Of a DNA stretch of 64,000 bases, positions 39,426-58,200 are shown piece after piece. Within the stretch, counting starts at the first letter, position 1. Every line of letters starts with the position of its first letter. The notes beneath the pieces are model-generated. The model was not told the origin of the DNA. It saw only the letters and a list, made by a program, of their open reading frames with translations, and did no database searches. The position numbers and the translations under genes were made by a program. Source of the DNA: a virus; the IMG/VR virus record IMGVR_UViG_3300037189_017154, positions 1 through 64,000 of that record, one strand, 5' to 3'.

Positions 39426-40541
39426 ATGACTCACTCAAAAACTACTCTAAAAGATCACTTAGCAGTGTCTCTAGCTAACGCTGTGGTTATGTATCACACT
39501 AGCCACGGTTACCACTGGAACGTCAAGGGACTTGACTTCAGAGAGTTCCACGAATTCTTTGGCGAAATATATGAAGACGTCTTTGGTTCTATAGACGAGT
39601 ACGCCGAGAACATTCGTAAGATCGGATTTGACGCTCCTTTCACAATGCAGGAGTTCTTGGAGCTAGCTACCTGCGTTCCAGAGAAGGTCACCGTTAGCGA
39701 TCCGACTCGCTTGACCGCTTCTCTGCTAGACGTCAACCTAAAGCTTATTAGCAGCCTAAAGGCAACCTTTGACTGTGCTAACTCTCTAAACGAGCAGGGC
39801 GTTGCTAACTTCCTAGCTGAGCGCATTGATGCACACCAGAAGTGGGATTGGCAGCTTGCTGCAACCCTTGGTAACCAGACTTACTCAACGTCATTCATTG
39901 TTGTAGAAGCTGATATGCAGCCACTACCTCAGACTCAGGAAGGCTGGGATGACGAACTTGCATTCCTAGATGGCTACGACAACGAAGGTACTGCATTCTT
40001 TGCATCTGGCCGATCACGTGAACTAGTTCTTCCACAGAACGTTGAAGCAGAGCTAAAGTCTTTGGTTGACGCTCACAACGCTTCAGCAGGAGAAGGTCTG
40101 AAGACCACTTTTGCTAAGTGTAAGACCGTCTACCGCCGTGGAGCTCGTAAGTATGCTGGCGAACTAGCTGAAGGTACTACACGCCACCGCTTTGCAGTTG
40201 CTCGTGTTGAACAGTTCCTATCTCAGATTGGCAGCGAAAAGCTACTAGCTACATTTAGCACTGACGATGCAGATCTTCTACCAAACTCACACCCTAAGGC
40301 TCTAAGCATTGATCCTCTAGTAGCTTCTGCTGCTGTTAAGAAGGGTCTAACTGTGACTGTTAAGAAGCCTGGAGAATACAAGCGTAACGAGGACGCAGTC
40401 CTAGATATCGCTGAGTTCTCTGGTAAAGGCTACGACGCAGTGAGCCAGATCAAGGATGCTTGGATCTATGGACAGTCTAAAGGCAAGTCAGGCTACAATA
40501 CAGCTCTGGCATTTGCACTAGGCTATTTCGTACACGGATAA
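39426..40541 (+). CDS. Dps-like ferritin domain fused to a phage module
   Basis: 371 residues. Residues 10-155 are a Dps domain: SHGYHWNVKGLDFREFHEFF, EIYEDVFGSIDEYAENIR and a GFDAP segment. H30, H42, D57 and E61 reproduce the spacing of the inter-subunit ferroxidase ligands of Dps (H51, H63, D78, E82 in E. coli numbering). Residues about 225-265 (TTFAKCKTVYRRGARKYAGE...RVEQFL) resemble a short module with VYRRG..AY and ARV..FL found in other phage proteins. DLLPNSHP is echoed in the next protein as DLLPAAHP. Located in the virion operon 11 bases after the portal. Confidence 0.85.
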   Translation: MTHSKTTLKDHLAVSLANAVVMYHTSHGYHWNVKGLDFREFHEFFGEIYEDVFGSIDEYAENIRKIGFDAPFTMQEFLELATCVPEKVTVSDPTRLTASLLDVNLKLISSLKATFDCANSLNEQGVANFLAERIDAHQKWDWQLAATLGNQTYSTSFIVVEADMQPLPQTQEGWDDELAFLDGYDNEGTAFFASGRSRELVLPQNVEAELKSLVDAHNASAGEGLKTTFAKCKTVYRRGARKYAGELAEGTTRHRFAVARVEQFLSQIGSEKLLATFSTDDADLLPNSHPKALSIDPLVASAAVKKGLTVTVKKPGEYKRNEDAVLDIAEFSGKGYDAVSQIKDAWIYGQSKGKSGYNTALAFALGYFVHG

Positions 40542-40646: not shown

Positions 40647-43600
40647 GTGAGTCAAAATCTTAGTGCCCTTGTTGCCGCGTTAGAAACTATCAACCAGAAA
40701 GATCTGGAGCTCAGCGTTGTTGAGACCGAACAGATATTCAAGAAGGGCGTTGTAACTCACGTTCTCCAGCAGAATGCTCTAGTTGCATCAATCCGACAGG
40801 TGGCAATTAAAGACGTTCTAAAGTTCACCGACCGCTACATCGCTAGCAAGCTAGATAACGAAGACCCTCGTGATGTTTTCTTCAACGCTGCACGCGAGGT
40901 CACAAGTTTTGTTGAGTACGCTGTCAACGGTCCAGCTCTAGAAAGAGTGATGGCAGTTGAGCACAGGGACCTACTCCCAGCGGCTCACCCGTTCTCAACA
41001 AAAACCATTAGCCCAATTACCGCATCAGCACTTCGCGTACGCAATGCTGCCTGGGTAGCCTGGGACCCACGTATTACTGATGATGCAGCACGTAAGGCTG
41101 TATTTGACGCATACGTACAGCAACCAAACACAACCAAGGGTTTGTATGCAGTTGCACGCCTTGAATCACTAACTGCTTCTGTTGTTCCAGCAGACATCAA
41201 GCTTGGTGCAGTTACAGCTGCATTTGGCGTTGGTAACCCATTTGCTGGTAACAACTCTTCAGCTGCTCGTTCTGCTCGTGCTAAGTTGCAGCGTCGTGAC
41301 CGTAAGGGTCGATTTGCCGAGATGGGTGGAGGATCTCGTATCCTTGCAATGATCGGCAACATGATTAAGTCATTCACCGGTAAATTTGCTGGTATCCCTC
41401 AAGACAGCAACAACATTGAAGTTGAAATTGCTGGCAACTCAGATCTTCCTGGCGGTATTTACTCTGTACCAGCATCAAAGGTTGAAGGTCTTAAGGCTAT
41501 TCTTCGTGGCAACATGGTATCTCCTGCAGTACCAGCCAACTCACGTAACTCACGTGCAGCTATCGACCTACAAGATCTACTTGCAAGCCGTAAGAGTGCT
41601 CCTACTGGTTGGACAGATAACGGTGATGGTAAATTCACATCTGCAGACGGTTATTCAGTTTCACAAATTGATATCCCTCAGGATGCAACTGGAATGAATG
41701 ATAAAAATGGTAACTTTTTACCATTTGAACTTCAAGGCAAATTTATCGGTGCTGGTCCAAACGGATCATACGACCGATCTAAGCCTGTGTTCGAACTTAA
41801 AGATGCTAACGGCAACGTAGTTGGTCGCGCTCAGGAATGGGCAAACCTTCAGAAGCTTGCAGCAGACTCAGACGAGTCTAAGGGTGCAGCTCCTAAGACA
41901 AAGGCACGTCTAAGAACCCCACAGCCTGCTGGCTTCCGTCAAGAACCTGGCGACAACACAGAGCCTATTGACGTAGTTGGCGATTCTGAAGTAGAGCCGC
42001 TACCGGCACCTCCACGTAAAGAAGATGATAATTTTGAAGCTAACTACATAAACTATTTAGCCACTAAGGATTACAAAGCTAAGGACGTTACAGATACCGA
42101 TGGCAAGTACTTCCTATCTGAGCAAGAGCTAGCCGATGGCGGTAAACTTTGGCAAGTAGGCGACGATATGGACGACAACGGTCCTCAGTATGTAGCCCAA
42201 AAAGCAGACGGTACTTTTGAAGTTAATGGTAAGACTTTCTACCCAAAGAACTACGGCGGGGATGTTATTTCTGCTGCAGATGATGCCTTTAGTACTGCTG
42301 ATAAGAATAGATCTGCTGGCAAACGGGGCTTTGCACAGGAGGCTGGTAGCGAAGAAAAAGTTAACAGCGAAACACTGGACGGCTGGGCAAAAAAGTACGG
42401 TGCAGTAGAAACTACTACTCCAGATGACACTGCTAAAAACATGAGAAGATGGGCATTAGATGGCCATGATATTGTTATGGAGAACGCTAATACTGATTCT
42501 ATTAAGCCTTACAATTTTAAAATAAAGATTACTGAGGGCCCAGACGCTGGTAAGTTCTACTGGGGATCAAGCGTTGCAGATATCCCATCTAACTATCAGT
42601 ACGGTCTATCTAGGGAAGAGGATTTAGAACAACTCTTTTCATTCCCTAAAAATATAAAACGTAAAAAAGATGGCTTAGAGCCACTAAAAACAGATAAAAA
42701 TCAGCAACGCGATAGCAAGATTGAAAGAATTAAAAACAATCGTGCTCAAAGAGCTAAAGTAACTAATGCTATAGCTACTGCAGACCCAAAAAAGATTCAA
42801 GAAGCCTTAGATGATGCAGCAATTCCAGAAAAATACCAGGATGTTCTAAAAGCTCAGCTCAAAAAAGCTCAGGATTTTGAAAATGGATTGAGCGAAGATC
42901 CGCACTGGACTAAAGACGAAATTGCTGCTATCGAACAGATGGCAAAAGATTACGGCTATGAAGGCGATATAGTTCCTAATGAAGAAGGCGTGTACTCATT
43001 TACGCTAGGAAGCGAGGATGACTATAGTTGGGCCGAGCTAACTATATTCCCTGGCAATAGAGCTGACTTAACTCAGTATACTACTGGTGCATATAGTCCT
43101 GGTGGATGGGATGAGCCTCCTAGCCAGGATGTAGATTCAGAAACTAGATCAATCCCTGTAGGGTCTTCTATGGACGATCTCGAGAATATATTTGCTGGTG
43201 GAGATAATAGCTCCGATGCGCCAGAACCACCAGAGCGTGACGAAGACGAGGGCTTCTACCAAAAGCCGGGCGAAGAACCAGAAATTAAAACCGTTGATGA
43301 CTACGTAAACTCAAAGTACGGTAGAGGTTTCAAGGAAACAACTACTGAAGCTGATAAAGCAGCTGGAAGACGCGTTTGGTTCTATGAAGACACAGACACT
43401 GGCGGTGGCGGTGAGGTCACTCAGAATGCTGACGGCACTGTTGATATTTCAGGTACCACTTTCTCTCAGGGTATGTTTGGCGAGAGACAATCAGAATTTG
43501 ATGACAGCTTTGACCCTAACTTCTATGGCGAGGGTGAAGACGGTAGAGTCGGTGCAATTGACGACGCCTTTGGTACTATTAAGTACAAAACAGGTGATCC

Positions 43601-46600
43601 TGGCGTACCTGACTCTGACGGCTTCGAGCAGGCTCCTGGCCTCCCTGGATTCAGACAGAAGTCCGGTAAGGGTAAATTTGAACTACCTGAAGACTTTGAC
43701 AGTGTTAAGAACTGGAAAGATCTTGGCAATGGTAAGTACGAGTACACCTCTAAAGACGGACGTCTAAAGGTAAGGTACAACGAAGAATTTGACGCCGAGC
43801 CTGACGGTGAAGGCGGTATGCGTGGCTACGAAAACTCATACGCTGAGATTGAACTAGACGGTGAAGTAATTGAAGACAGTCTAGATGCTAACGGTGCTTC
43901 TTTCCTTTTTGGTGAGGGTGAGAGAGAATTCGAACCAGCTGAGCTAGCTGACAGAGTAGTTAAGTCTCTTAAGGATGCCCAGAGCAAGGGCTTCAAGCAA
44001 GAAGCTGGGAAAGACTCAGAGGCCCAGGCCGAGTCATACTTAAATGAACTAGAGCAAGATGCTTCAGAGATTCTCGATAGAAACCCGATGGGCACCACTG
44101 AATGGACATCTAAAGATGGAAGAGTTAAGGCAGTTCACGGTGATGACGGCAGTGCTGGTGAATACGTCGAGGTATTCCTAGATGGTAAATCCATTGGAGG
44201 TGTTGGTAAGTATTCCCCTGTGGAAGATCCAAAAACTGGAAATTATAGTGAACCATGGGATAGCCCTGATAAAGAGCCAGGTTGGGTAGCTGATGGGATC
44301 TACGAGCTTCTAAAGGAGAACCTAGCTACTGAAGGCTTCAAGCAAGAAGCTGGTAAAGAAAAATTTGAACTTTCAAAAGAGTTTTACAACGACAAGAACT
44401 GGTCTAAGGAACCATTTAAAAATCCTGAATGGACTTCTGCAGACGGTAAGGTAAAAGTCAAGTACGTCTCTGATGGCGACGTAAATGATGAAGGACGTCC
44501 AGTTGACACTTCTTACCTAGAAGTATCCGTTGATGGCGAAGTCATTGGAGATATTTCCGCACCTAATGCCCTTCAGTACAACGCAGGTGATCCTAACGAC
44601 CCTGAATACATGAGGACCGGAATTCCAAGTTCTAAACTAGAACTAGACGAGTACGGCGACGATGTCCAGGCTATGGTTGACAATCACCTAAAGTCTAAGG
44701 GTGGCTTCAAGCAGTCTGCTGGTGAAGCAGGTGGAGTTCGCAAGTCTCACATTTCTGACCTAGACAACTGGTCTAGTGACCCATCAGATGGTGGAGAAGG
44801 TACATACACCTCTCCAGATGGACGTCTAACTCTCGAGGCTATGGCTGACGCTGACACCGACGGTGAAGGCGGAATGAAGGATCTATCTCGCATTGCTGTT
44901 TCTTATGACGGTGAAGAGATTGGAACTCTACCTAAACTTGGCGTAATGTACAACGAGGCAGATCTTGCTGACGACGTCGACAATCTAGTTAGCAAGTACC
45001 TAGAAAAGCAAACTGGTGGTTTCAACCAGCAGCCTGGTTCTGGCAGACGAAAAGTTGGAAACTTTAGAGTAATTCCTAGAGAAGAATTCACCGACATTGT
45101 TGGTGCAGCTGATACTTCTGATGGCGGAATTGTACGTCTTGAGAAAACTAAGAACGGTACAATTACCCCTACCGCTTATAACAGATTTGGTCAGGTGATG
45201 GCTCAGAGCGAGCCTACAACTGATCTAGACGCTGCTCTAAAAGAGGGTGAGCGACTGCTATCTGGTCTTGAAGGCAAGGCCCAGGACAGCCCTGAAGTTT
45301 CTGGATTCTCTCAGAAGCCAGGCGAAGAGCCACCAGCCTGGACTAAGGATCCAGCTACTCCTTTGCAGTACAACAAGCTTCAGGGTATTCTTGACAACCA
45401 GGCTGACAGGCTTCCAACTGATGTCCGTGACATGGTTGAAGAAGCCGTTGCTAACAAGGCTCTAACCAAGGGCGAGATGGGCAAGCTCCTTGCTGAGGTT
45501 GGTAAGAGTGCTGATCTTTCAATTAGCTACACTCCTAAGGTTGATAAGGCTCATGCTTCTGATAGAGCTAACTGGAAGTATGATAAAAAATCTAAGAGTT
45601 ACTCATACACCTCTGCTGACGGAAGACTGTCTATTAATGCTGTGTCTCCAGAAGACGGTGCAACTACAGTAACTTATGACGGTAAGCCAGTTCAGATATC
45701 TAGACCTTACGGCAGTGAGATCTGGCAATCAGTCGATAACGGTGGAGTTCCTATTGGAGATTCTGTCGATACTGCTATCAAAGATCGACTAGATTTTGAA
45801 AATAAAACAGGCATCTATTCAGATAAGTCAGGCTTCGCTCAAGCTCCTGGATCTACTTCAAAAGCAATCCGTACTCCTCAGCCACAGGTTGACGAGGGTC
45901 GTGCGGCATCAGCTAAATTTGCCAAGGACGGTTTCCTAGAACAAACAACCAACTACGGCAGTGGTGACTCTGACTTGTCATGGGAAATTGATGTTGATGA
46001 CATGGAAAGTGCTGCAATAGTTGTTAAGTACTCTCCTAACCGTGGAACATGGTACGCATACGCTCAGTACAGAGATAAGAGAGGTAATCTCAGTACTGCT
46101 GAAAATGGCGACTTAGGAGACTTTAAGACTGCAGAAGAAGCTATGGCTGCAGCTAGTGCTTTTAATAACGATGAAGATCGTATGGATGAGTACAATGAAA
46201 TCATTCGCGATGCTAGAAAAGCTCGTATGCAGGCAGTTGCAACTAAGTTTGAAGAGGCAGTTGCAAACAAAGACTACGATGCTCTAAAAGAGCTTTTAAA
46301 TGATGAAGATGTTCTAACTTCAGAAGACTCCGATTTCTTAGAGAATGACATTCTAGAAGAGATGAACTCTATATCTCTTGAAGAAGAGCGCCAAAGCGAT
46401 GTTGAGGATGCTCTCGCTTCGAATGATAAAGATAGATTAGAAGAGCTACTGGGTGATGACGACTACGAGGAGTATCACTCTAGGCTGGAAGACGCTATCA
46501 ATGACTTCAAACATGGAGAAGAAGATCCAGACGGCTTCGAGCAAGCTCCAGGTAAAAAACTAACTCCTCGAAACAACCAAACTCTCAAACCAAACAGTAT

Positions 46601-49600
46601 TGGTGGCTACGATACAGGAACCGACGGGGATGGCTATATAGAAGTAAATCCTAACAAGGACGGAACATGGGAAGTAAGTCACGCATATAACTACCTGATC
46701 GATGAAAATGGTCCTGAAGGTGTTATGGATGAGGGCTCACAGACTTTCAAGACTAAAGAAGAAGCTATGGCGTATGCTAACGATAAGCTTGAATATTACA
46801 ATAGTCAGGAAGTCTATGATGATGCCTCTGATCACGCTATGGAAGCTGCATACCGTGGTGGAATGTACGATGAGGGCTTTGAGCAACGTCCTGGAAGACA
46901 AGTCAACATTGGTGATTTTGAGGTCTTTAAGGGTAACTATTCTCTAAGTGATAAATTTGAGGACTTCAATGTCAGAATTGAAAAGACTCCAGAAGGTAAA
47001 TGGAAAGTAACTCCATCAGTCTTTGGATTCCCTGGAAACGATGTAAACCGCCGCGAGGACTGGTTTGATCAAACTCCTCAAACATTTGACAACTTAGAAG
47101 ATGCTAAGAAGTCAGCTGTTAAAGAAGCAAACTATCTAAGTAATGACACCAATAGATCCGGTGCCCTCGATGAGAGGGGACCAGGTTATGGTTTCGCTCA
47201 GAAGCCTGGAAAGAAAGTAAGTCCAGAAGTTTCTGCTAAGAACAAGGAACTAGCTAAGAGACTTATGGAAAAGGGTGCTTTTGATCCTGATGGTGGTTTA
47301 GATGAAGATGACCCAGACTATGAAGCTCTTCAAGATATTAAGGATCGTAACGAGGCTTACCTAGATAACCTTGCTGCTACAGATCCAGCAGAGTATTTCT
47401 ATACTATTGCTAAAGCTGGAGAGTTTATGGGCGCTGAACCATCTGACTTCAGACGTATGATTGAAAAGCCATACAACTACCATGCTGAAGTTCTTGAATC
47501 AGAGATGAACAGCTGGGTCGGAGACAACAACAGCGGCTACTGGTTAGATGAAATCGGTCACGGCTCTGAGGGCGAAGGCTTCGCTCAAAAAGCTGGAACT
47601 AAGAAAGTAAATCCAAAGGCAGCAATTCAAAAGATTATTGATGCAGCTCCTAAAGATCAGGGCTTTGCTCAGCGTGCTGGTAAAGAAGACGGTTTAAAGA
47701 GCAACGGTACAATTGCTGGAGATATCTATGATCCAGAGACCTACGGCATGATGGACTGGGCATCTAAATGGACAGATTTCTCGGTTTCTGAAGGAGAAAA
47801 TAGGCTTGGCGAGTGGTGGAAGTGGCAAGAAGAGTTTGGTCAGTGGGCAGTTAGCGAAGATCCAAAAGAAGCTGCGGGTCAGGGTCTAGTTGACGTCTAC
47901 ACTCTTCGTGATATTTTAGATGGAAACGTTGGCACGTTTAATCCTCTAAGCAAGAGAGATTCCGGTTGGCGTGATCGAGGAGATGGTAGTCACGAGTTTA
48001 AATCTGAGACTATAAATATATTCCCTACTAAAAATGATGACGGAACATTTGATTACACCATTACTAATGCGGCTACCGATGAGTTGATTGACACAATCGA
48101 AAACGTAGGTGCGGCTGATAGTGTTGAAAATCTTATTTCTGGTGAATTTAGATCAGATTTGGAAGATATTGGCTATGAAGTCAGTGGTAGATCTAGTAAT
48201 GCTGTTAATCTATTCTCAGATCCATATGACAGAAGTAGAGGGTTTGCTCAAAAGTCTGGATCTGACTCCGGGCTATTAGAAGAAAATCCTGCAGCTATTA
48301 AACTCAGCGGTAAATTTAGTGATACCGGATCTGGTGGAATAAACTATCAGGATTCTGAAGGTAGATCCAAGGGTAGCGTACAAATGTTCTTTACTAAAGA
48401 TAAGAATGGTAAAGAAAGCTACGGTTGGATGGTCGAGTACCTACCATCTAATGGAGAAGGTATTGTACGTAAGAGTTTTATGCAAAAATATGACGGTGCC
48501 TACGAAGGAAAACCGTGGATTGCAGCTGAAAAACATCTAAGAAATCTAATTGCTAAAGACAATGCTAGCCAGAACAAACAAAAAACTGGTGGATTCTCTG
48601 CTAAGCAGATGGAACCTGCAACTCCTGCCCAGTATGCTCTTCTACAAGAGTACGCTGACGAGAGAGTACCAGCTGATGATCTAACTGCACAGGCAATTCA
48701 AGACGCACTTGCTAACAGGAACCTAACTAAGGCACAGATGAGTGCTCTTATTGGTCCTATGAACGATGCTGAATTCAAGCCGGGCGTTGACCCTAACAAG
48801 CCAAGCGACCGTGCTCTTAAGTCATTAAACAGCAAGCTTGTCACTAAAGATCTAACTCCAGAAGAAGTCAAGGACATCCTAGACAACCTACCGAACATGA
48901 ACCGTGCAGAAGTTGATGCTCTAAACGACAGGCTTCGCAGGAAGAAGGATCGTCCAGAGACCATTGGTTTCGCTCAAGAGCCAGGTGGTTCTGATGACGA
49001 GAACATGGAGCAGCTAATGGGCGACGACCTAGGCAACGACAGAAACGTTGAAACCCAGGGCGAAATGTCTGACTACTACAACTCTCTCAAAGGTGACCGT
49101 ATTGCAGAACTTCAAAAGAAACTCGATGCTGCAAATGAAGAAATCAATATCTTCGGTCTAGATGACTTGCAAGAAATGCTAGACGAGGCTGACCCAGATA
49201 GCGAAGCTAACCTAAAGAGATATGGTAAAACTTGGCCTGCAGAGCAGTCTTACATTGCAGCTCAGGATCTTAGAGACGCTGCAGAGCAAATTAGAAACAG
49301 CAATAACCCTAACGTTGACAAGAGTCTAGCTGATGATCTAGACAATGCCGCCAATCAGGTTATGAAGCGTATGGAAGATAGGATCAATCCACTACTGTTC
49401 GCTTCAGTTGAAGATCCATATGGTACCAATTTTGATCTAGGTGATGTAGACACAGATCTAGACCAGATGCGTGAACTCTACTTTGAGACTGACACAGATG
49501 AGATCAAGAAATATCTAGATCAAACTGGAGTCTACGGTGACGTTAGATCTGGTGGAGCAGAAGCAGTAGTTTCTGATAAACCAGAAGAAGATGGCGAAAA

Positions 49601-52600
49601 CAAAGGCAAATACAGAGCTTCTGTAAGTTACGGTGGCGGAACTGCTGCTGATGATCAGGTAGAGTACTTTGATGACCCAGAAGATGCTAAAGACTGGGCA
49701 GCTAATGAAGTTTCTAACTTAAGTAGCTATCACCAAGTAGGTCTTACTCACCCAGACAAATCTTTCTCAGATCTTGATGCAGAAAGAGATGCTGCAATTG
49801 CAAATGGCACTGAGCAGGAGTTCCTAAGTAGACTATCTGACGTAGCAAAAATAATGAGAGATCAGAGAGGCGATGAAAAGCTATCTCGTGAACTTGATGA
49901 CTACGTTGAACGTGCCCAGGCAGCTCTTGACAAGAAGAAGGGCAACGCAGGAGGTCAAGGCTTCGCTCAAAGACCAGGATCTGATGAGAACGAGCAAGAT
50001 ATAATCGACGACATCAAGTCTCGTGGACAAGATATCATTGATGGTCTTAGAGACAATGGCAAAATCGATGTTGAAACTGATGAAGAGTTCGAAGCTAGAA
50101 TTGCTGACTATCAAAGGAACTTGGATGGTCTACTATTCCAACTAAACTTTGGCAATAGCGATACTTTAGAGCGTTTTGGGATGGATTTCGATTCCACAGC
50201 ATGGACAAGTTCTGGTAATGACGAACTTCTTGCTCAGCTAGAAGATCTAGTTCCAGAAGCTAGAAGACGTCGTAGTAGTGCTATTTATGGATCCCGTGGC
50301 TTTGCTCAGGAACCAGGCTCCGGAACCCCTGTCAGAAATGACAAACTAAACCCAACCAGTGATGGTGGATTTGGTACTAATCCTTACTCTGATAGTCAAA
50401 TTGAAGTCAATCCTACCAAAGATGGTAAGTGGGAAGTAAATCATGCTTATAACTACATGATTGACGAGAATGGTCCTACAGGTACCATTGACGAGGGTTC
50501 TAAACTCTTTGATTCCAAAGAAGAGGCTCTTGCATTTGCTAATGAAAAACTTGACTACTACAACAGTTCTGATGTAGACAGAGATGCAGAAGATCACAAT
50601 GCTGATCGTTATACTGGGTTTGATCAAAAGCCAGGCAACGCAGTTGTCTCTCCTAAGATGGGTGAACCAGCTTCAGATGCTCAGTACGACTACCTCAAAG
50701 AACTTGGCGATACTCAGGATGGAATCAGTCCGGATCTAGCTACTGCAATCCAGGATGCTCTATCAAGTAAAAACTTGACAAAGGCTCAGGTGGGTGCATT
50801 GCTAGGACAACTTAGAGCTCTAAAGCCTAAGGCTGGTATTGATACAAGTAAGCCGACTCCTCGTCAAATTCAGAGAGTCAAAGATCTTGCGAACTCACTT
50901 GGCCTAAGCCCTGCTGAAAAGCGTAAGCTTGGTCTTAGCAAGGTGAGCAGCATGTCTTCTGATGAAGTTCAGAAGCTCATTGACAACCTAAAGCGTAGAG
51001 GCGGGGGAGACGAGGGGTCAGGTGGTGTCCGCCCAAAAGGTAGACCCGGCGATAAGCCGGGTGGTGGCGGATCAGTAGGTCAAGTACCCGGAAAATTAAT
51101 TTCTTATACTCCTAGAAGTAAATTCTTAGAAAAAGATAGATCTGACGCTAAAGAAATTTATGACAGAGTAAATAAGAATCTTGACAAATATGCTAGTCAG
51201 GATTCTGAATTTGCAAAAAAATTAGAAGAGTCTAAGAAGAAGTACCCTGAAGGCATCTACAGCATGATTGACATTGCTGCAGATCCTAACTCTACTCAGC
51301 AGCAAATTGACGATGTTATAAAAGACGTCAATGATCTTAATAAAGCTCTGCAGAGTAGTAAAGCGGATGTATTTGCTGGAGACACTAATGTATTAGATGG
51401 TCTTGCTAAATATAAATTTGCCGAGCTAACCCCAGAAGTTAATAAACAAAAACTATCTGGAGGAAGCAAGAAGCACTCTGAAGGTGACACTGTAGATTCT
51501 AGATTTAGTGCTATGTATAACCCTAACCTAGTTGAATACAAGAGCTCAGAAAATGGTAGGGGCTCCACTAATACAGCAATTGGTTATGTAACTACCGATG
51601 CTTTAGAAGGCATGGCTGGAAATGAAATTCGTAATGCAAGTGTAGTTAACGATATTGCAAAAGATCTTAAAAATGGAGTTGGATTTAAAGAACCGATAAT
51701 CATGATTTACGATCCAAAAACCGGTAAAGCATTTATTACTGAAGGTAACCATAGACTTGCTGCAGCAAAAAAGGCTGGAGTTAAATACGTTCCAGTAAGA
51801 ATTGTAAATCTAGATGTAGCTCCAGGTGACCAGATTAAGATGGAGCGAGTTGGTAAGCCTCTAGGACGTAGAGCTGCCCCTATTGGCGGAGGTGAGTGGT
51901 CTTCAACAATTCAGCCTAGTCAAATATTTGATGACTCTCAGCTTCTCCAAGAAGATGCCGGAGGTTTTGCTCAAGCAGCCGGATCACCTAGAGCCAAGAG
52001 ATTCAACGAAATGGCGGCTGACCGTAAGTTTGTAGACGCTACAACTGAAAAAGATGCTAAGAAAGATATTAGCCGTTGGAGTAGAGAAGAAAACGGTCTA
52101 AAAACTGAAATTACTGAACGTAATGGAAGATTCACTGCCAAGTTCAGCGATAAGCCTAAAGAAGAAGTAGACCTTGGTATCAATGAATCTGCAGCGTTTA
52201 AAGAGGCAGAACGCCAGATTATGCTCAGAACCGCTGAGTTTGACACTGTTGACCTAGATGGCTTTGCTCAAAAAGAAGGCGACAAGGGTCCTAAGCGTCA
52301 ACGCGTTCTAGAAGCCATCGCTTCAGTAAGCAACGCCCTCGGTCTATTCGACGAGTGGAAGGGTAAGACTACCAAGGTTCGTGAAGATGTAAACAACGTT
52401 GGCGAATTTGTCAACAACATGCGTTACGTCAAGGCGGATCTTGAAAAAGCAATCAATAACCTAAAGAACTCTAAGGGTGTTGAAGAGAAGATGGCTGCCA
52501 TCTCTGAGCTGACTGCTGCAATCAAGAAAGCAAAACTTGCTGCAAGAATTGCTAAGGATCGTTGGAAGAGAAATCACCCTGAAGACCTGAAGCCTAAGGC

Positions 52601-55034
52601 TCCAAAGACTCCTAAAGCTATTGAAGCTCCTACAGTTGAAAAAGTTAGCAAGAAGTTTGAAGACGATTTAACTGCAGCTGAAGAAGCAATCAGTCCTACC
52701 CCTGGACGACTTCCTAATCCTGAGCCTTACAACATTCCACGTGGTGGAGTGTACATGTATGACGAAAACGGTAACCGCCTACGTCAAGATGGCACACCTT
52801 TTAGACCGATTGGTCCTTCAGATCTGGATGGCTTCGCTCAGTCCCTACCGACCGAGACAGTATCTCCTAAAGATTTCAAGGCTAGACAAGCTAAAGCTAT
52901 AGCAGATAACAAGGCTGCTGCGGCTTCTATGATGGATATTTTCCGTAAGCGTATAAAGAACCCAGCTTGGCACAAATGGCAAGCTCCTTACTCAGATTAT
53001 CCTGCCGACGATCCAATGACTGCTCCGGTTAATCCGAGCAACATGCCATTTAACCCTTCATCTAATCATCAATATAGTGCGATAAACCACCACGCTCTAG
53101 CTACTGCAGCTGCTGAACGTGGCTATACAGACCCTCGCTGGATGACTTCAGCACAGGCTAAAAAACTTGGTGCTACTGTTCGTGATGGCGAGCAGGGTGT
53201 GAAGATCATGACATTTATGACTATTGAAGATGAAGAATCTGGAGAGCGCTCAATAGTCCAAGTACCTAGATTTGTTTTTAACGCTCAGCAAATGGATGGT
53301 CTAGAGCCTTATAGTCCTAGCCAACAACCAAAGATGGATGCTGCACAGGCTATTGATTTCGTTCTTGGTAGATTTAGTGAAGCCGAGAAAAAGCGTGGCA
53401 AGAGTGGAAATATAAAGATCTGGGAGGATCTGTACGGTAGTGACACCCCTATGTGGAGTCCTGCAGGAGCTCGTAGGCCTGAAAATATTAGAATGCCTGA
53501 TCGTAGCAAATACGACAGCCCTGAAGATTACCTATATAGTTTATTCCACGAACTAGCCCATGCAACTGGAACTCAGGATAGACAGGGTAGAGAAGCCCAC
53601 CTAGCTCAAGCGCGTGGGGACATGACTATGGGTCAGCTAGCGGTTGAAGAAGCCACTGCCGAGATTGCTTCTCAGCTATTACTACAGCGTCTAGGTCTAA
53701 ACTATAATCCAGACAGAACAGCCGAATACCTAAGATCTCACGATCTTAATGATGCTCAGCTAAATGAAGCAATGGCAAAAGCAGAGCTAGCAGTTGATTA
53801 TGTACTAGGTAACGATGTTCTCCCTCCATGGCATAACAGCTCTAGCGACATGATGGAAGCTGCAGAAGTCCCTGGATATACTCCACCTGCTTCACGTAGC
53901 TGGAACCCTAATACTAACCTAGGTCCTCAGGACGCTCCTTCAGCATTCCCTGCTGGAACTCCAGGATCTGATGAAAACCCAGAAGTAACTGGTTTTGCTC
54001 AGAAGCCTGGAAAGTTTGACAGAACTGGTAAAAAGTCTGTAACTGATAGCAAGACTGCAACAGAAAAAGTTATGGCCGGTCTTCTTGAGAAGATCAAGCA
54101 GGGAGAGACTCCTTGGCGTAAGCCTTACAAAGAGGGCGAAAAGTACGCAGGTATAGCTCTACCTAGAAACCCATCGTCTAAGCACATCTACTCGGGTGTA
54201 AACGCTATGGCTCTAAGATTTGCTCAAGAAGAGAATGGCTATAGCGATCCTCGATGGATGACCTATAACCAAGCTTCGGCAATGGGTGGTCAGGTACGTA
54301 AGGGTGAGAAGGGTACATTCATTCTTGTTCCTATGCGTATCACTCAGCAGGATGAGAAAGACCCAAACAAGAAGCGTTCATTCACCATGTTCAAAGCTAC
54401 TGCAGTATTTAACGCTGAGCAGATTGATGGTCTGAATCTACCTGAACTATCTACAGAGAGCCTCCCTAAGATGACTCCTCTAGATGCACAGGAATTCATT
54501 GTTGAGCGTTACAAGAAGGCAATGGCAGCTCGTACCGGCAAGGCTCCAAACATCAAACATACTTATGTTGGAAGTGGTGGAGCACACCAGGCTCCAAACT
54601 GGGGAACCTTATCGGATGAAGTTACTCTACCTAACCTAGAGCAATTTAATTCTCCTGAAGATCTGTTTGACACAATCGCTCACGAACTTGTACACAGTAC
54701 AGGCCACCCAGATCGTCTAGACAGATCGGATCTAACCAAGGACTATGCCAATGATTTAGAGTCTAGAGCTAGAGAAGAACTTATTGCTGAAATTGGAGGT
54801 GCTCTACTAGCTAATATGTTTGGTGTAGATGCAACATTTGATAACAGTGCAGCATATGTTCAAAGCTGGCTAAAGCACCTACAATCCAACCCAGACGAGA
54901 TTATCAATGCAACTAGCCAGGCCCAAAAAGCTGTAGACTATATTCTTGGTACAGATCTTGGAGACTGGAGCCCGATTGACGGATATAGCATTGGAAATGC
55001 TGTCCAAAAACCTACAGAAGAAGAGGAGTCATAA
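40647..55034 (+). CDS. giant polyvalent protein with 26 GFxQ motifs, ParB-like and two ArdC-zincin domains
   Basis: 4795 residues, GTG start behind AGGAAGG. Residues 1-430 are a head-type N-terminal region with a basic GRF segment. From 429 to 4449 the protein is divided by 26 copies of G-F-x-Q-x-[PAS]-G or close variants (429, 561, 869, 992, 1001, 1115, 1230, 1353, 1458, 1553, 1729, 1963, 2077, 2182, 2311, 2339, 2532, 2649, 2774, 3105, 3218, 3324, 3773, 3872, 4062, 4449). Between them are acidic modules, many duplicated (YTSxDGRL..DGE.IG units; two copies of a VNPxKDGxWEV unit near 1990 and 3245; DUF3072-like TPxQYxxL..LTKAQ units near 1568, 2655 and 3341). A ParB/Srx-like domain lies near 3585-3740 (EGNHRLAAAKKAGV). 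Two ArdC-N plus zincin units end the protein, with HELAH at 4301 and HELVH at 4679. This is the architecture of polyvalent proteins thought to be delivered with phage DNA. Confidence 0.9.
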   Translation: MSQNLSALVAALETINQKDLELSVVETEQIFKKGVVTHVLQQNALVASIRQVAIKDVLKFTDRYIASKLDNEDPRDVFFNAAREVTSFVEYAVNGPALERVMAVEHRDLLPAAHPFSTKTISPITASALRVRNAAWVAWDPRITDDAARKAVFDAYVQQPNTTKGLYAVARLESLTASVVPADIKLGAVTAAFGVGNPFAGNNSSAARSARAKLQRRDRKGRFAEMGGGSRILAMIGNMIKSFTGKFAGIPQDSNNIEVEIAGNSDLPGGIYSVPASKVEGLKAILRGNMVSPAVPANSRNSRAAIDLQDLLASRKSAPTGWTDNGDGKFTSADGYSVSQIDIPQDATGMNDKNGNFLPFELQGKFIGAGPNGSYDRSKPVFELKDANGNVVGRAQEWANLQKLAADSDESKGAAPKTKARLRTPQPAGFRQEPGDNTEPIDVVGDSEVEPLPAPPRKEDDNFEANYINYLATKDYKAKDVTDTDGKYFLSEQELADGGKLWQVGDDMDDNGPQYVAQKADGTFEVNGKTFYPKNYGGDVISAADDAFSTADKNRSAGKRGFAQEAGSEEKVNSETLDGWAKKYGAVETTTPDDTAKNMRRWALDGHDIVMENANTDSIKPYNFKIKITEGPDAGKFYWGSSVADIPSNYQYGLSREEDLEQLFSFPKNIKRKKDGLEPLKTDKNQQRDSKIERIKNNRAQRAKVTNAIATADPKKIQEALDDAAIPEKYQDVLKAQLKKAQDFENGLSEDPHWTKDEIAAIEQMAKDYGYEGDIVPNEEGVYSFTLGSEDDYSWAELTIFPGNRADLTQYTTGAYSPGGWDEPPSQDVDSETRSIPVGSSMDDLENIFAGGDNSSDAPEPPERDEDEGFYQKPGEEPEIKTVDDYVNSKYGRGFKETTTEADKAAGRRVWFYEDTDTGGGGEVTQNADGTVDISGTTFSQGMFGERQSEFDDSFDPNFYGEGEDGRVGAIDDAFGTIKYKTGDPGVPDSDGFEQAPGLPGFRQKSGKGKFELPEDFDSVKNWKDLGNGKYEYTSKDGRLKVRYNEEFDAEPDGEGGMRGYENSYAEIELDGEVIEDSLDANGASFLFGEGEREFEPAELADRVVKSLKDAQSKGFKQEAGKDSEAQAESYLNELEQDASEILDRNPMGTTEWTSKDGRVKAVHGDDGSAGEYVEVFLDGKSIGGVGKYSPVEDPKTGNYSEPWDSPDKEPGWVADGIYELLKENLATEGFKQEAGKEKFELSKEFYNDKNWSKEPFKNPEWTSADGKVKVKYVSDGDVNDEGRPVDTSYLEVSVDGEVIGDISAPNALQYNAGDPNDPEYMRTGIPSSKLELDEYGDDVQAMVDNHLKSKGGFKQSAGEAGGVRKSHISDLDNWSSDPSDGGEGTYTSPDGRLTLEAMADADTDGEGGMKDLSRIAVSYDGEEIGTLPKLGVMYNEADLADDVDNLVSKYLEKQTGGFNQQPGSGRRKVGNFRVIPREEFTDIVGAADTSDGGIVRLEKTKNGTITPTAYNRFGQVMAQSEPTTDLDAALKEGERLLSGLEGKAQDSPEVSGFSQKPGEEPPAWTKDPATPLQYNKLQGILDNQADRLPTDVRDMVEEAVANKALTKGEMGKLLAEVGKSADLSISYTPKVDKAHASDRANWKYDKKSKSYSYTSADGRLSINAVSPEDGATTVTYDGKPVQISRPYGSEIWQSVDNGGVPIGDSVDTAIKDRLDFENKTGIYSDKSGFAQAPGSTSKAIRTPQPQVDEGRAASAKFAKDGFLEQTTNYGSGDSDLSWEIDVDDMESAAIVVKYSPNRGTWYAYAQYRDKRGNLSTAENGDLGDFKTAEEAMAAASAFNNDEDRMDEYNEIIRDARKARMQAVATKFEEAVANKDYDALKELLNDEDVLTSEDSDFLENDILEEMNSISLEEERQSDVEDALASNDKDRLEELLGDDDYEEYHSRLEDAINDFKHGEEDPDGFEQAPGKKLTPRNNQTLKPNSIGGYDTGTDGDGYIEVNPNKDGTWEVSHAYNYLIDENGPEGVMDEGSQTFKTKEEAMAYANDKLEYYNSQEVYDDASDHAMEAAYRGGMYDEGFEQRPGRQVNIGDFEVFKGNYSLSDKFEDFNVRIEKTPEGKWKVTPSVFGFPGNDVNRREDWFDQTPQTFDNLEDAKKSAVKEANYLSNDTNRSGALDERGPGYGFAQKPGKKVSPEVSAKNKELAKRLMEKGAFDPDGGLDEDDPDYEALQDIKDRNEAYLDNLAATDPAEYFYTIAKAGEFMGAEPSDFRRMIEKPYNYHAEVLESEMNSWVGDNNSGYWLDEIGHGSEGEGFAQKAGTKKVNPKAAIQKIIDAAPKDQGFAQRAGKEDGLKSNGTIAGDIYDPETYGMMDWASKWTDFSVSEGENRLGEWWKWQEEFGQWAVSEDPKEAAGQGLVDVYTLRDILDGNVGTFNPLSKRDSGWRDRGDGSHEFKSETINIFPTKNDDGTFDYTITNAATDELIDTIENVGAADSVENLISGEFRSDLEDIGYEVSGRSSNAVNLFSDPYDRSRGFAQKSGSDSGLLEENPAAIKLSGKFSDTGSGGINYQDSEGRSKGSVQMFFTKDKNGKESYGWMVEYLPSNGEGIVRKSFMQKYDGAYEGKPWIAAEKHLRNLIAKDNASQNKQKTGGFSAKQMEPATPAQYALLQEYADERVPADDLTAQAIQDALANRNLTKAQMSALIGPMNDAEFKPGVDPNKPSDRALKSLNSKLVTKDLTPEEVKDILDNLPNMNRAEVDALNDRLRRKKDRPETIGFAQEPGGSDDENMEQLMGDDLGNDRNVETQGEMSDYYNSLKGDRIAELQKKLDAANEEINIFGLDDLQEMLDEADPDSEANLKRYGKTWPAEQSYIAAQDLRDAAEQIRNSNNPNVDKSLADDLDNAANQVMKRMEDRINPLLFASVEDPYGTNFDLGDVDTDLDQMRELYFETDTDEIKKYLDQTGVYGDVRSGGAEAVVSDKPEEDGENKGKYRASVSYGGGTAADDQVEYFDDPEDAKDWAANEVSNLSSYHQVGLTHPDKSFSDLDAERDAAIANGTEQEFLSRLSDVAKIMRDQRGDEKLSRELDDYVERAQAALDKKKGNAGGQGFAQRPGSDENEQDIIDDIKSRGQDIIDGLRDNGKIDVETDEEFEARIADYQRNLDGLLFQLNFGNSDTLERFGMDFDSTAWTSSGNDELLAQLEDLVPEARRRRSSAIYGSRGFAQEPGSGTPVRNDKLNPTSDGGFGTNPYSDSQIEVNPTKDGKWEVNHAYNYMIDENGPTGTIDEGSKLFDSKEEALAFANEKLDYYNSSDVDRDAEDHNADRYTGFDQKPGNAVVSPKMGEPASDAQYDYLKELGDTQDGISPDLATAIQDALSSKNLTKAQVGALLGQLRALKPKAGIDTSKPTPRQIQRVKDLANSLGLSPAEKRKLGLSKVSSMSSDEVQKLIDNLKRRGGGDEGSGGVRPKGRPGDKPGGGGSVGQVPGKLISYTPRSKFLEKDRSDAKEIYDRVNKNLDKYASQDSEFAKKLEESKKKYPEGIYSMIDIAADPNSTQQQIDDVIKDVNDLNKALQSSKADVFAGDTNVLDGLAKYKFAELTPEVNKQKLSGGSKKHSEGDTVDSRFSAMYNPNLVEYKSSENGRGSTNTAIGYVTTDALEGMAGNEIRNASVVNDIAKDLKNGVGFKEPIIMIYDPKTGKAFITEGNHRLAAAKKAGVKYVPVRIVNLDVAPGDQIKMERVGKPLGRRAAPIGGGEWSSTIQPSQIFDDSQLLQEDAGGFAQAAGSPRAKRFNEMAADRKFVDATTEKDAKKDISRWSREENGLKTEITERNGRFTAKFSDKPKEEVDLGINESAAFKEAERQIMLRTAEFDTVDLDGFAQKEGDKGPKRQRVLEAIASVSNALGLFDEWKGKTTKVREDVNNVGEFVNNMRYVKADLEKAINNLKNSKGVEEKMAAISELTAAIKKAKLAARIAKDRWKRNHPEDLKPKAPKTPKAIEAPTVEKVSKKFEDDLTAAEEAISPTPGRLPNPEPYNIPRGGVYMYDENGNRLRQDGTPFRPIGPSDLDGFAQSLPTETVSPKDFKARQAKAIADNKAAAASMMDIFRKRIKNPAWHKWQAPYSDYPADDPMTAPVNPSNMPFNPSSNHQYSAINHHALATAAAERGYTDPRWMTSAQAKKLGATVRDGEQGVKIMTFMTIEDEESGERSIVQVPRFVFNAQQMDGLEPYSPSQQPKMDAAQAIDFVLGRFSEAEKKRGKSGNIKIWEDLYGSDTPMWSPAGARRPENIRMPDRSKYDSPEDYLYSLFHELAHATGTQDRQGREAHLAQARGDMTMGQLAVEEATAEIASQLLLQRLGLNYNPDRTAEYLRSHDLNDAQLNEAMAKAELAVDYVLGNDVLPPWHNSSSDMMEAAEVPGYTPPASRSWNPNTNLGPQDAPSAFPAGTPGSDENPEVTGFAQKPGKFDRTGKKSVTDSKTATEKVMAGLLEKIKQGETPWRKPYKEGEKYAGIALPRNPSSKHIYSGVNAMALRFAQEENGYSDPRWMTYNQASAMGGQVRKGEKGTFILVPMRITQQDEKDPNKKRSFTMFKATAVFNAEQIDGLNLPELSTESLPKMTPLDAQEFIVERYKKAMAARTGKAPNIKHTYVGSGGAHQAPNWGTLSDEVTLPNLEQFNSPEDLFDTIAHELVHSTGHPDRLDRSDLTKDYANDLESRAREELIAEIGGALLANMFGVDATFDNSAAYVQSWLKHLQSNPDEIINATSQAQKAVDYILGTDLGDWSPIDGYSIGNAVQKPTEEEES

Positions 55035-55265: not shown

Positions 55266-58200
55266 ATGATCACATTTATCGGCCAATCTGGGTCGTTGCT
55301 CTTGTTTACAAGTGAGCACCATGGTGTAGTTGTCGACACCGATTTTAATATGGTTGTTGAGTCAGGCGTTCCTGAGACTCTATTTTCTAGCCGTAGCTGG
55401 GAAAAATCTGATACAGAGCCTGGTCAAGATCTAACTGCTTTAGCCTCCATCTCTTTACAGACTATGGATGCAAAAACTATTATTGCGTCTGCTGGACGTA
55501 TGTATACCATTCCAAAATCTGCTCAAGCAGAAGCCAAGAAAGCTCTTGAATGGCACAAGGAGCACCACCGTGGCGGCACTCCTGTCGGCATGAATACAGC
55601 AAGAATTCTTGCTAAGGGTGGGCAAATAAGCCTACAAAAAGTACGCCACATCGCAAAGTACTTCCCTCGTCACGAAGTTGACAAAAAGGGTAAAGGCTGG
55701 AAGCCAGGCCAAGATAACTTCCCAAGCAACGGCAGAATTGCGTGGGCCTTGTGGGGTGGTGATTCAGCTTGGCGTTGGGCTGTTGATATTGTAAAACACG
55801 CAGATCCAAAACCAATTAAAGCTGGTGGCGGTTATCTGGCTCAGCAACAGCCTCAAGACCCTTTCCACAATGCGTTCACTCTTGAAGAAAACTATGGTCC
55901 AGAGTTTATGGCTCGTGTATGCCTTGATGGATCTGGACTAGATCGCCTATACAAAGTTGACATCGATGGTCAAGTTTACGTGTGGGATAACGACTGCTGG
56001 GACGACATGGGAAATGTCGACAGCGATGTCTGGGACTATGACCAGGGGTTAGATTATGAAGATGATGGCATAGAAAAAAGTCACATTCTTATTGATGCAT
56101 CGTCTGCTGTAATGATTGCAGCTCGTTTGGCAAACAATCCTTTCGGCAAAGTTTCTGTTTTTGATCTTGATGAGGACGAAGCTAGACTAGCTGCCCGATC
56201 AATTCCTGAAGAAGACTGGGAGATGATTGACCTAGGTATGGTAGCTGCTGGTGAAGGTGGTATTGGCCCAGCGTCATATACTCCAAAGGAACGTGCAGCA
56301 AACGTAGCTAAGCAACCTCGCTCTGCGGGTGGAAGATTTGGATCAAAGGGTAGTAAGGCTCAAGTTGGCCAGAAGACTACACCTGGAGCTAGCAACCCTG
56401 GTTCAGCTCCAAGTGCTGGAAAACCTGGGGGCATAAGCCTGGAAGATCAGAGAAAGAATGCTAACTCCGGTCTTCCTCCTCAAGAAATACTTGAAGGTCC
56501 TCTAGATACTTCTGGAATCCTTGGAGAACCTCGTACTCCAATCGATAGACCTAACGCTCGAATATCTGGCACTCTTCCTGCAATGACAAAGGAAGATCTC
56601 CACCAGGTTCTTTATGACTTCCCTGCTTGGGTTCAGAGCCAGCGTGCTTCTTATAGTCCTGGTGATTACCACACTCCTATGACTAGTGCTGGTGATGAGA
56701 AAAAAGAATCAGAAGACCCAGAATCTTACGACCACCCTTTACTTAAAAAGTGGCGTGCCACTAAACTCCGCGAAGAGATCAAACCTTCTACAGACACTAG
56801 CTGGGCAGCCCCGGTTGTTGCTGCTGCAGGAGTGGCTGAGGCTCAGAAGCCAGCCGTAGATCCTGAGAAGGAAGTTCAAAAAGATGAAGCCAAACCAGAA
56901 GGTGCTCCAAAGAGCAATCCAAAACCTAGCGATCCTGGTAAGCCGGTACAGCTTACTCCTGAAACTTCTGACGTACAGCCTCTGTATTTTGCTATTGTTG
57001 CTCCAGATGACCCTCAAGCAGTAACCGATCTAATTAGCATGGTCCCAGCCAGCTCAACGTCAACTGCTCCTATGATCTACAAGCGCTTAGATAAGAAGTG
57101 GGTTCGTGATGAGAAGACACTTGCTGATCTAAAGTCTGCAACTCCTCCACCTGTTGTCCCTCTTGACTCTGCAACTCTGAACGATGTTCTAAAGCAGGTT
57201 GACGGTCTAGTTGCATCTGCTGGTTACCTACAACACCAGATGATAGTTCTATGGGGACCTAGAGAAGATATTCTTGTTGCTGCTGGTGGCCTTGATAAAA
57301 ACAGAGGTAACGCAGAAGAACTTCGCCGTTACTGGACTGTTGGCAAGGGTGCAGCCAAGATTCGTTGGAACACTAAGGGTGACTGGACTCGTTGTGTTCG
57401 TCATTTAGAAAAGTATCTAGGCCCACGTGCTAAGGGATATTGTGCTCTACGCCACAAGGAAGTTACTGGTCTGTGGACTGGTGATAAGCGCCATCGTGAG
57501 CTATATGGACGTAAGGGTGTAAATAGTAACAAGGCATTCTTCAGTGATGAAGTCCTTAAGTCTTCAGAAATGGTCATCGACTCAGTAACCTTAGTTGCTC
57601 GTGCTAATGATGCTAAGCACCGTCTAGGTCTATTGGCAAGTGCACCTATTGCCACATCTACTAATGGAGGAATGTTCCGTATTCCTTTAGTAATCCCTGA
57701 GGGTAAGCAAACCGGAGATGGTCGTACTTTCCGCAAGGGATCAATCACAATGCGTGAACTACCACTGCCATTGCTATGGCAAGTTAGAACTTCAGACGGA
57801 CACAATGGGTCCGTTGTAATCGGTCGAATTGACCGAATGGAGCGTACTGAAGAAGGTATTGGAAATGCTGTTGGCATTTTTGATACTGGAGAGTATGGGC
57901 GTGAAGCCGAACGTTTGGTTCGCAACGGATTTATTCGTGGCGTATCAGCCGATATGGATCAGTTCGAGGCTGAAGAAGAAAAAGAAAAGAAAACTTCTAA
58001 GTCAAAGACTGAGAACGACATCGACATCGATGACGATAAAAAAGTTGGTGGGGACAAACTCACTATAAATAAAGCTCGGGTAATGGCAGTCACTATGGTG
58101 CCAAAGCCCGCGTTCCAAGAATGCAAAATCTTCCTCGTAGAGGAAGGTGAACCCCAGGAGGATAATATGATTCCACAAGATGGAATATATGCCGAAGACG

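Follow-up and report, generated by a model that had tools for sequence, protein, structure and literature searches.

What does a phage make from a single reading frame of 14.4 kb in which one short peptide returns between domain after domain? The frame lies in the window, the stretch of 64,000 nucleotides analysed here (positions 1 to 64,000 of IMG/VR record IMGVR_UViG_3300037189_017154). The original prediction read it as a polyprotein whose repeated peptide is a processing site or a docking peptide, and both remain plausible and appear to be the right pair of hypotheses for this junction motif; the further step, to 20-odd separate virion cargo proteins from this one gene, is conjecture.

Genomic setting and domains of the giant protein

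The frame was confirmed as unbroken, running on the plus strand from a GTG start at 40647 to 55034 with AGGAAGG about 10 nt 5' of the start; its frame 0 product has 4795 amino acids. Its assignment to a virion operon was equally sound. The TerL gene (32906) lies 5' of it, as do the portal gene (37648..39414, phrog_776) and, between portal and cargo gene, a gene for a ferritin-like protein (39426..40541; PF00210, E=5.6e-17). Downstream are the gene for a 1570-aa virion protein (55266..59978), in which residues ~811-1213 form a head-maturation-protease region and which is a candidate processing enzyme, and that for the major head protein (MCP; 60116..61948). The portal, ferritin-like and two downstream genes are on the plus strand, and neither of the two downstream products contains GFxQ. 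The window contig, from an uncultivated virus, matches a 126-kb record, IMGVR_UViG_3300032334_001128, identically over 33 kb. By portal its closest named relative is the Actinomycetia phage DSL-LC01, the genome of which was itself assembled from a lake metagenome (PMC10611076), and the virus that carries the giant ORF is a freshwater-type actinobacterial phage. In DSL-LC01 the gene that follows the portal repeats the RDxxGRF segment of the cargo protein (51% over 79 aa).

The chain opens with an N-terminal anchor domain (RRDRxGRFAEMGGG; 40647..41930, plus strand), which AlphaFold predicts to be folded to residue ~411 (pLDDT 83) and disordered at its end, with the first junction motif directly behind. 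Residues 1-~411 are kept in ~50 non-redundant relatives and matched no homologue among solved folds, while the sequence C-terminal of them is variable. Here it comprises two ArdC N-terminal domains, two MPTase-PolyVal domains, a Tc-38 match, a ParB-like domain and more than 10 unnamed module families. The ParB-like domain (51573..51815, residues 3643-3723; phrog_8071, E=5.4e-5) is followed on the plus strand by a first ArdC-like/zincin module (52851..53990), with the Tc-38 match at residues 4148-4217 and 34% identity to the second. Further on are an ArdC N-terminal domain (54057..54410, residues 4471-4588; PF08401, E=3e-48), which matches the ArdC crystal structures 6i89 and 6sna (E~7e-40), and an MPTase-PolyVal zincin peptidase with HELVH (54606..54920, residues 4654-4758; PF18818, E=2.7e-40). 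Module families recur both inside one giant protein and across giant proteins; in the window they are 'S-x-DGR' (at least five times), DUF2188-like (three), 'EPATDAQY' (three) and ArdC-zincin (two). The original description of the modules as otherwise different was therefore too broad, several of them being repeated families, but it is true that the same motif connects families that are unrelated.

Because ParB-like, ArdC and zincin domains are the hallmark of polyvalent proteins, the giant protein is assigned, on its predicted domains, to this already described class of virion cargo. Polyvalent proteins have 2-15 domains each and are thought to be packaged and injected, and processing by zincins has been proposed for some of them; the word 'linker' is absent from the text that describes them (Iyer et al., 2017; PMC5512222). 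The likeness to the polyvalent proteins of phages and conjugative elements lies in the joining of many effector-type domains (ArdC-N, MPTase-PolyVal, ParB-like) in one chain and in a gene that adjoins virion genes, with the portal upstream and the head maturation protease and MCP downstream. Unlike those in PMC5512222, the window protein has more than 25 modules, a lineage-specific junction peptide that turns over in concert, and a conserved, predicted -1 frameshift. The open-access literature held no earlier report of either a frameshift or a junction motif in polyvalent proteins. The claim that this was not a described class thus fails for the protein and, within that literature, holds for its motif and for the frameshift; what looks new is the lineage-specific, concerted junction motif together with the -1 frameshift.

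Packaging of the giant protein in the head and its injection are what we infer for it. Cysteine is absent from all 4795 residues and is scarce in the family (79 of 153,924 residues over 58 proteins, or 0.05%, versus 0.74% in the other window ORFs). It is also absent from the MCP and from a 1572-aa ORF at 68028 of the 126-kb parent contig, which is probably the tape measure. Low cysteine was accordingly downgraded as proof of injection, since the MCP and this large tail-region ORF are equally free of it.

The junction motif and its turnover between lineages

The 26 copies originally reported were recovered as 24 exact matches to GFxQxxG and two degenerate ones, spaced 9-449 residues apart; composition alone would give 0.048 exact copies, and in the shuffled giant protein the best four-letter pattern reached at most four. 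All are on the plus strand. The exact copies are GFRQEPG (41931..41951), GFAQEAG (42327..42347), GFYQKPG (43251..43271), GFEQAPG (43620..43640), GFRQKSG (43647..43667), GFKQEAG (43989..44009 and 44334..44354), GFKQSAG (44703..44723), GFNQQPG (45018..45038), GFSQKPG (45303..45323), GFAQAPG (45831..45851), GFEQAPG (46533..46553), GFEQRPG (46875..46895), GFAQKPG (47190..47210), GFAQKAG (47577..47597), GFAQRAG (47661..47681), GFAQKSG (48240..48260), GFAQEPG (48966..48986), GFAQRPG (49959..49979), GFAQEPG (50298..50318), GFDQKPG (50616..50636), GFAQAAG (51963..51983), GFAQKEG (52260..52280) and GFAQKPG (53991..54011). The degenerate copies are GFSAKQM (48591..48611, residue 2649) and GFAQSLP (52830..52850, residue 4062). 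The 25 GFxQ copies all agree in G, F and Q; 21 of them have P or A at position 6, and 13 have A at position 3. At the DNA level all 25 are distinct, with a mean nucleotide identity of 65%, and the conserved residues share codons about as often (0.43) as codon usage would predict (0.35-0.51). The original view that selection acts on the peptide agrees with this variation in codons and with the joint turnover of the motif between lineages. The copies stand at module borders, in linkers of low pLDDT, and an AlphaFold model of one module, a modest one built on eight sequences, likewise places the motif outside the folded part.

No motif of the GFxQ type was found in the other window ORFs in six frames, and a scan of the 126-kb contig and of the window's own record gave no second plausible cargo gene with the junction motif. 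The 126-kb contig has three minus-strand matches, one in a GxQ-rich repeat protein and two outside any ORF of at least 80 aa. A GxQG-rich repeat ORF on that strand is similar to a collagen-like ORF of a related contig (GATGPTG repeats, 710 residues, from L027:6525 onward). Apparent motifs in L027, L043, L137 and L204 were set aside as low-complexity or long repeats.

Related phages use other peptides at their junctions. GFxQxPG is found in close relatives (L016/L097/L098), GFDQAPG in L085, L216 and L220, GLDQxxG in L221 and GLDQDA in L215, giving a graded series GFxQxPG / GFDQAPG / GLDQxAG / GLDQDA. The L110 lineage has EDLG-type junctions; at L110:9956-18901 repeated modules that by eye resemble GNAT acetyltransferases each end in VQSSxQVxEEDLG, and EDLG also stands behind an unrelated module, ADP-ribosyltransferase-like by eye. 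In two more distantly related lineages the peptides are PSQNRE (L038, L047, L122; 11 copies) and GPSPK[EQ]E (L050; 18 copies counted as GPSPK[EQK]E), one in each. Their first giant proteins are ~57-67% identical by BLAST, and the motif has been switched at aligned, orthologous junctions. Both lineages have, behind the first, a further giant gene that exceeds 6,000 codons and repeats the motif of its lineage; in the region read this motif is confined to the two giant ORFs. The junction 7-mers of these systems are 0.91 and 0.83 identical inside a phage and 0.48 between phages, and the two giant proteins of one phage are as alike in them as are copies inside one protein. Two modules limited to the PSQNRE lineage are each flanked by motif copies where the GPSPK lineage has a single motif. 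Tandem giant virion genes were seen in G005 (L173, L180; 3542+6148 codons) and G007 (L122, L174, L181; 3241+6256), and in both the N-terminal part includes an anchor-like RDxxGRW.EMG segment.

As compared across these phages, then, the junction motif appears lineage-specific, with all copies switching together, even across two giant proteins. The simplest explanation is a shared recognising factor, because separate copies with divergent codons have turned over in concert; the pattern suggests recognition in trans, and we consider it likely that one such factor, either a protease or a docking partner, reads the peptide. GFxQ was absent as a repeat from DSL-LC01, Pumpernickel, Racecar, GMA2 and Sixama, and most relatives that share the anchor and the capsid protease have no recognisable junction motif; the motif would therefore be dispensable for the basic function of the family.

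A putative -1 frameshift element

The gene also holds, as an addition to the original observations, a conserved and putative -1 programmed ribosomal frameshift element at 51032. On the plus strand it consists of a slippery heptamer C CCA AAA in frame 0 (51032..51038, codons 3463-3464), a TAG stop in the -1 frame at the second codon past the slip (51041..51043) and, after a spacer of 5 nt, a hairpin ACCCGGC-GATAA-GCCGGGT with a 7-bp stem (51044..51062). This is the pattern of such signals, with X XXY YYZ in frame, a spacer of 5-9 nt and a downstream structure. Frame 0 would give the product of 4795 aa and the -1 frame one of 3465 aa, so that the ParB-like domain would be present in the long product only. 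The layout is common to DSL-LC01, whose deposited annotation shows no frameshift, and to L137, L151, L157 and L168.

Other relatives have the reverse layout (L097/L098, L085, L091, L213-L221), in which frame 0 stops and the -1 frame is open for 173-1773 codons. In L097/L098 and L085 it is the motif-bearing frame that ends early, and the remaining modules run on in the -1 frame; there the slip at C CCA AAA is followed by the stop and then a GC hairpin, and the -1 frame of L098 and L085 is homologous to the C-terminal modules of the window. Separate initiation of the C-terminal part was rejected, as none of nine reverse-layout loci has a -1 start codon within ~30-80 codons past the slip. For that reason the C-terminal modules at these loci need the shift, and three related lineages are predicted to be incapable of making them without it.

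In the viral collection the element was also recovered blind, by pattern, in two scans (29 and 10 stretches). Among these 39 matches, which share ancestry and are not independent, 38 have a long ORF with the heptamer in its slippery frame and the expected frame open behind it, and the sole exception is cut by the contig end. Four of the matches (L192, L203, L206, L209) are portal fusions and not the giant cargo gene. By eye, CCCAAAA, stop and hairpin lie in L192, L203 and L209 between a portal-like domain and an ADP-ribosyltransferase-/MuF-like part, and the predicted frameshift may be used in portal fusions too. Two other candidates were discarded: CCCAAAA in G005 (L173) is made by the codons of the GPSPKQE motif itself, and Pumpernickel gp84 has an A AAA AAA site that was not recovered in Cece.

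Another possibility is that the hairpin at 51044-51062 is an RNA structure with a different role, or arose by chance. The short stretch around the element folds no better than its shuffles in L097 (z=-0.14), as this reading would have it, but in L085 the fold is clearly unusual (z=-5.3). Similar hairpins occur in most of 29 distinct element sequences, with a longer spacer in L091, and their stems differ in sequence yet stay paired; the scan patterns fix part of the stem, and the unbiased cases of pairing are the elements compared apart from the scans. The stop, whether -1 or frame 0, keeps a fixed position relative to the heptamer. An intrinsic terminator is not indicated because a U-tract is lacking. 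Together with the placement of the scan matches in the slippery frame, and with the homologous C-terminal modules that reverse-layout phages could not otherwise reach, this makes a role other than frameshifting very improbable, and we place high confidence in the predicted architecture with its frameshift.

The element was found in 12 of 16 phages with one giant gene, a count that includes L085, L151 and L157, whose reading ended before the next gene; the 11 phages with two giant genes all lack it (Fisher p=1.8e-4, without correction for relatedness). Because it occurs in one-giant-gene but in no two-giant-gene phages, the shift and the second giant gene may be alternative routes to expressing two cargo blocks at different levels.

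Recognition of the junction peptide and related systems

The architecture, the motif statistics and the concerted turnover are read from the sequence itself, as are the element and its frames; the rate of shifting is what we would infer from them. On balance we favour, as the best overall explanation, a Gag-Pol-like virion cargo system built on a junction peptide and a -1 frameshift, with cutting as the most likely use of the peptide. The anchor domain (residues 1-~411) would direct the chain into the head, and behind it would stand a string of folded modules separated by the lineage-specific peptide, GFxQxPG in the window. From one mRNA the shift at 51032 would give a short form of 3465 aa, which would lack the ParB-like/ArdC/zincin block, and a long form of 4795 aa that includes it. 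The shift would set the share of chains that bear this block, in effect how much upstream cargo is made relative to downstream cargo. One phage factor, co-evolving with the peptide, would recognise it in trans. This factor is most probably a protease, for which the candidates are the head maturation protease (ORF 55266-59978) and the zincins carried by the long form; it would cut the linkers while the chain is packaged, afterwards, or once it is injected. A docking partner ranks behind a protease as the recognising factor.

Cutting as the meaning of the motif is a guess, about which we are slightly more doubtful than convinced. The linker position of the motif, the two encoded peptidases and the earlier prediction of zincin processing make it plausible. 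Neither candidate peptidase tracks the motif exactly, and the MCP and the protease, the usual substrates of head proteases, are without it, which counts against cutting, as do the many relatives with no motif and the N4 virion RNA polymerase, a polyvalent protein that is packaged unprocessed (PMC5512222). The match between zincin and motif is only partial: MPTase-PolyVal went unmatched in the EDLG lineage, two lineages that do have MPTase show no clear motif, and co-occurrence was given up as a means of naming the zincin the cognate protease. Giant ORFs of two-gene relatives (L229, L230, L231, L175) have HELTH near the C-terminus, yet the MPTase-PolyVal query gave no match in these records.

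One alternative is that each copy is a docking peptide, one per module, that binds the capsid lumen, scaffold, portal or a phage chaperone and leaves the chain intact and tethered or ready for translocation. A small motif with invariant G, F and Q in disordered linkers would suit such a role, as would its restriction to the giant cargo proteins and its concerted turnover in the two cargo proteins of one phage. However, the universal anchor domain would already provide a docking handle, most relatives manage without the motif, and copies only nine residues apart (992, 1001) would be odd for independent sites; we regard docking as rather unlikely. The motif could also be a neutral linker or recombination joint, recognised by nothing and carried along as modules are shuffled. 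Modules do seem to be gained and lost together with a motif copy, and their families recur inside and between proteins, but copies as different in DNA as the 25 GFxQ copies offer too little for homologous joining, and neutral linkers would drift independently, whereas PSQNRE and GPSPK[EQ]E were exchanged at aligned sites in two proteins. We therefore think a passive joint improbable.

The favoured cargo system, with cutting, has partial counterparts among head proteases. Those of T4 (gp21) and phiKZ (gp175) cut packaged internal proteins at a short consensus, a site that coat or scaffold proteins share. As there, the gene for a head maturation protease is a neighbour of the cargo gene; unlike those substrates, the window MCP and protease are without the motif, and the consensus varies between close lineages. 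Retroviral and totiviral Gag-Pol (reviewed in PMC5009743) likewise has an X XXY YYZ heptamer with a hairpin, one mRNA with two products (predicted here), a common N-terminal part that would anchor the chain in the virion, and a peptidase module behind the shift. The present system differs in belonging to a dsDNA tailed phage, in having no homology to Gag-Pol and in that its cutting is hypothetical, and in the layout of the window and DSL-LC01 the shift shortens the product rather than extending it. Shortening of a product by frameshift is familiar from dnaX. Known phage frameshifts comprise the lambda G/GT tail chaperone, the Ig-like extension of the T3 coat protein and Listeria PSA (PMC5009743). 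They share with the predicted shift its place in a late virion operon and two forms at a set ratio, but here a giant cargo gene stands between portal and capsid protease and the forms differ by more than 1,300 residues of effector modules. We tentatively propose a class of Gag-Pol-type dsDNA phage polyproteins, with a single giant virion gene or two of them, which can encode more than 6,000 residues apiece, products cut at 10-26 lineage-specific junctions into injected effectors that act separately, a conserved -1 frameshift that sets the cargo ratio, and a site and protease that co-evolve.

If this is true, tailed phages would have independently reached the solution of RNA viruses, a polyprotein with a programmed frameshift, and each particle would be loaded with many early effectors in fixed proportions. 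With the junction peptides, proteins that otherwise resist annotation can readily be parsed into modules, and because the peptides turn over in concert, the choice between protease and docking is open to direct test. A pattern search suffices to look for the frameshift element, which would explain why giant phage genes come to be annotated as split or truncated.
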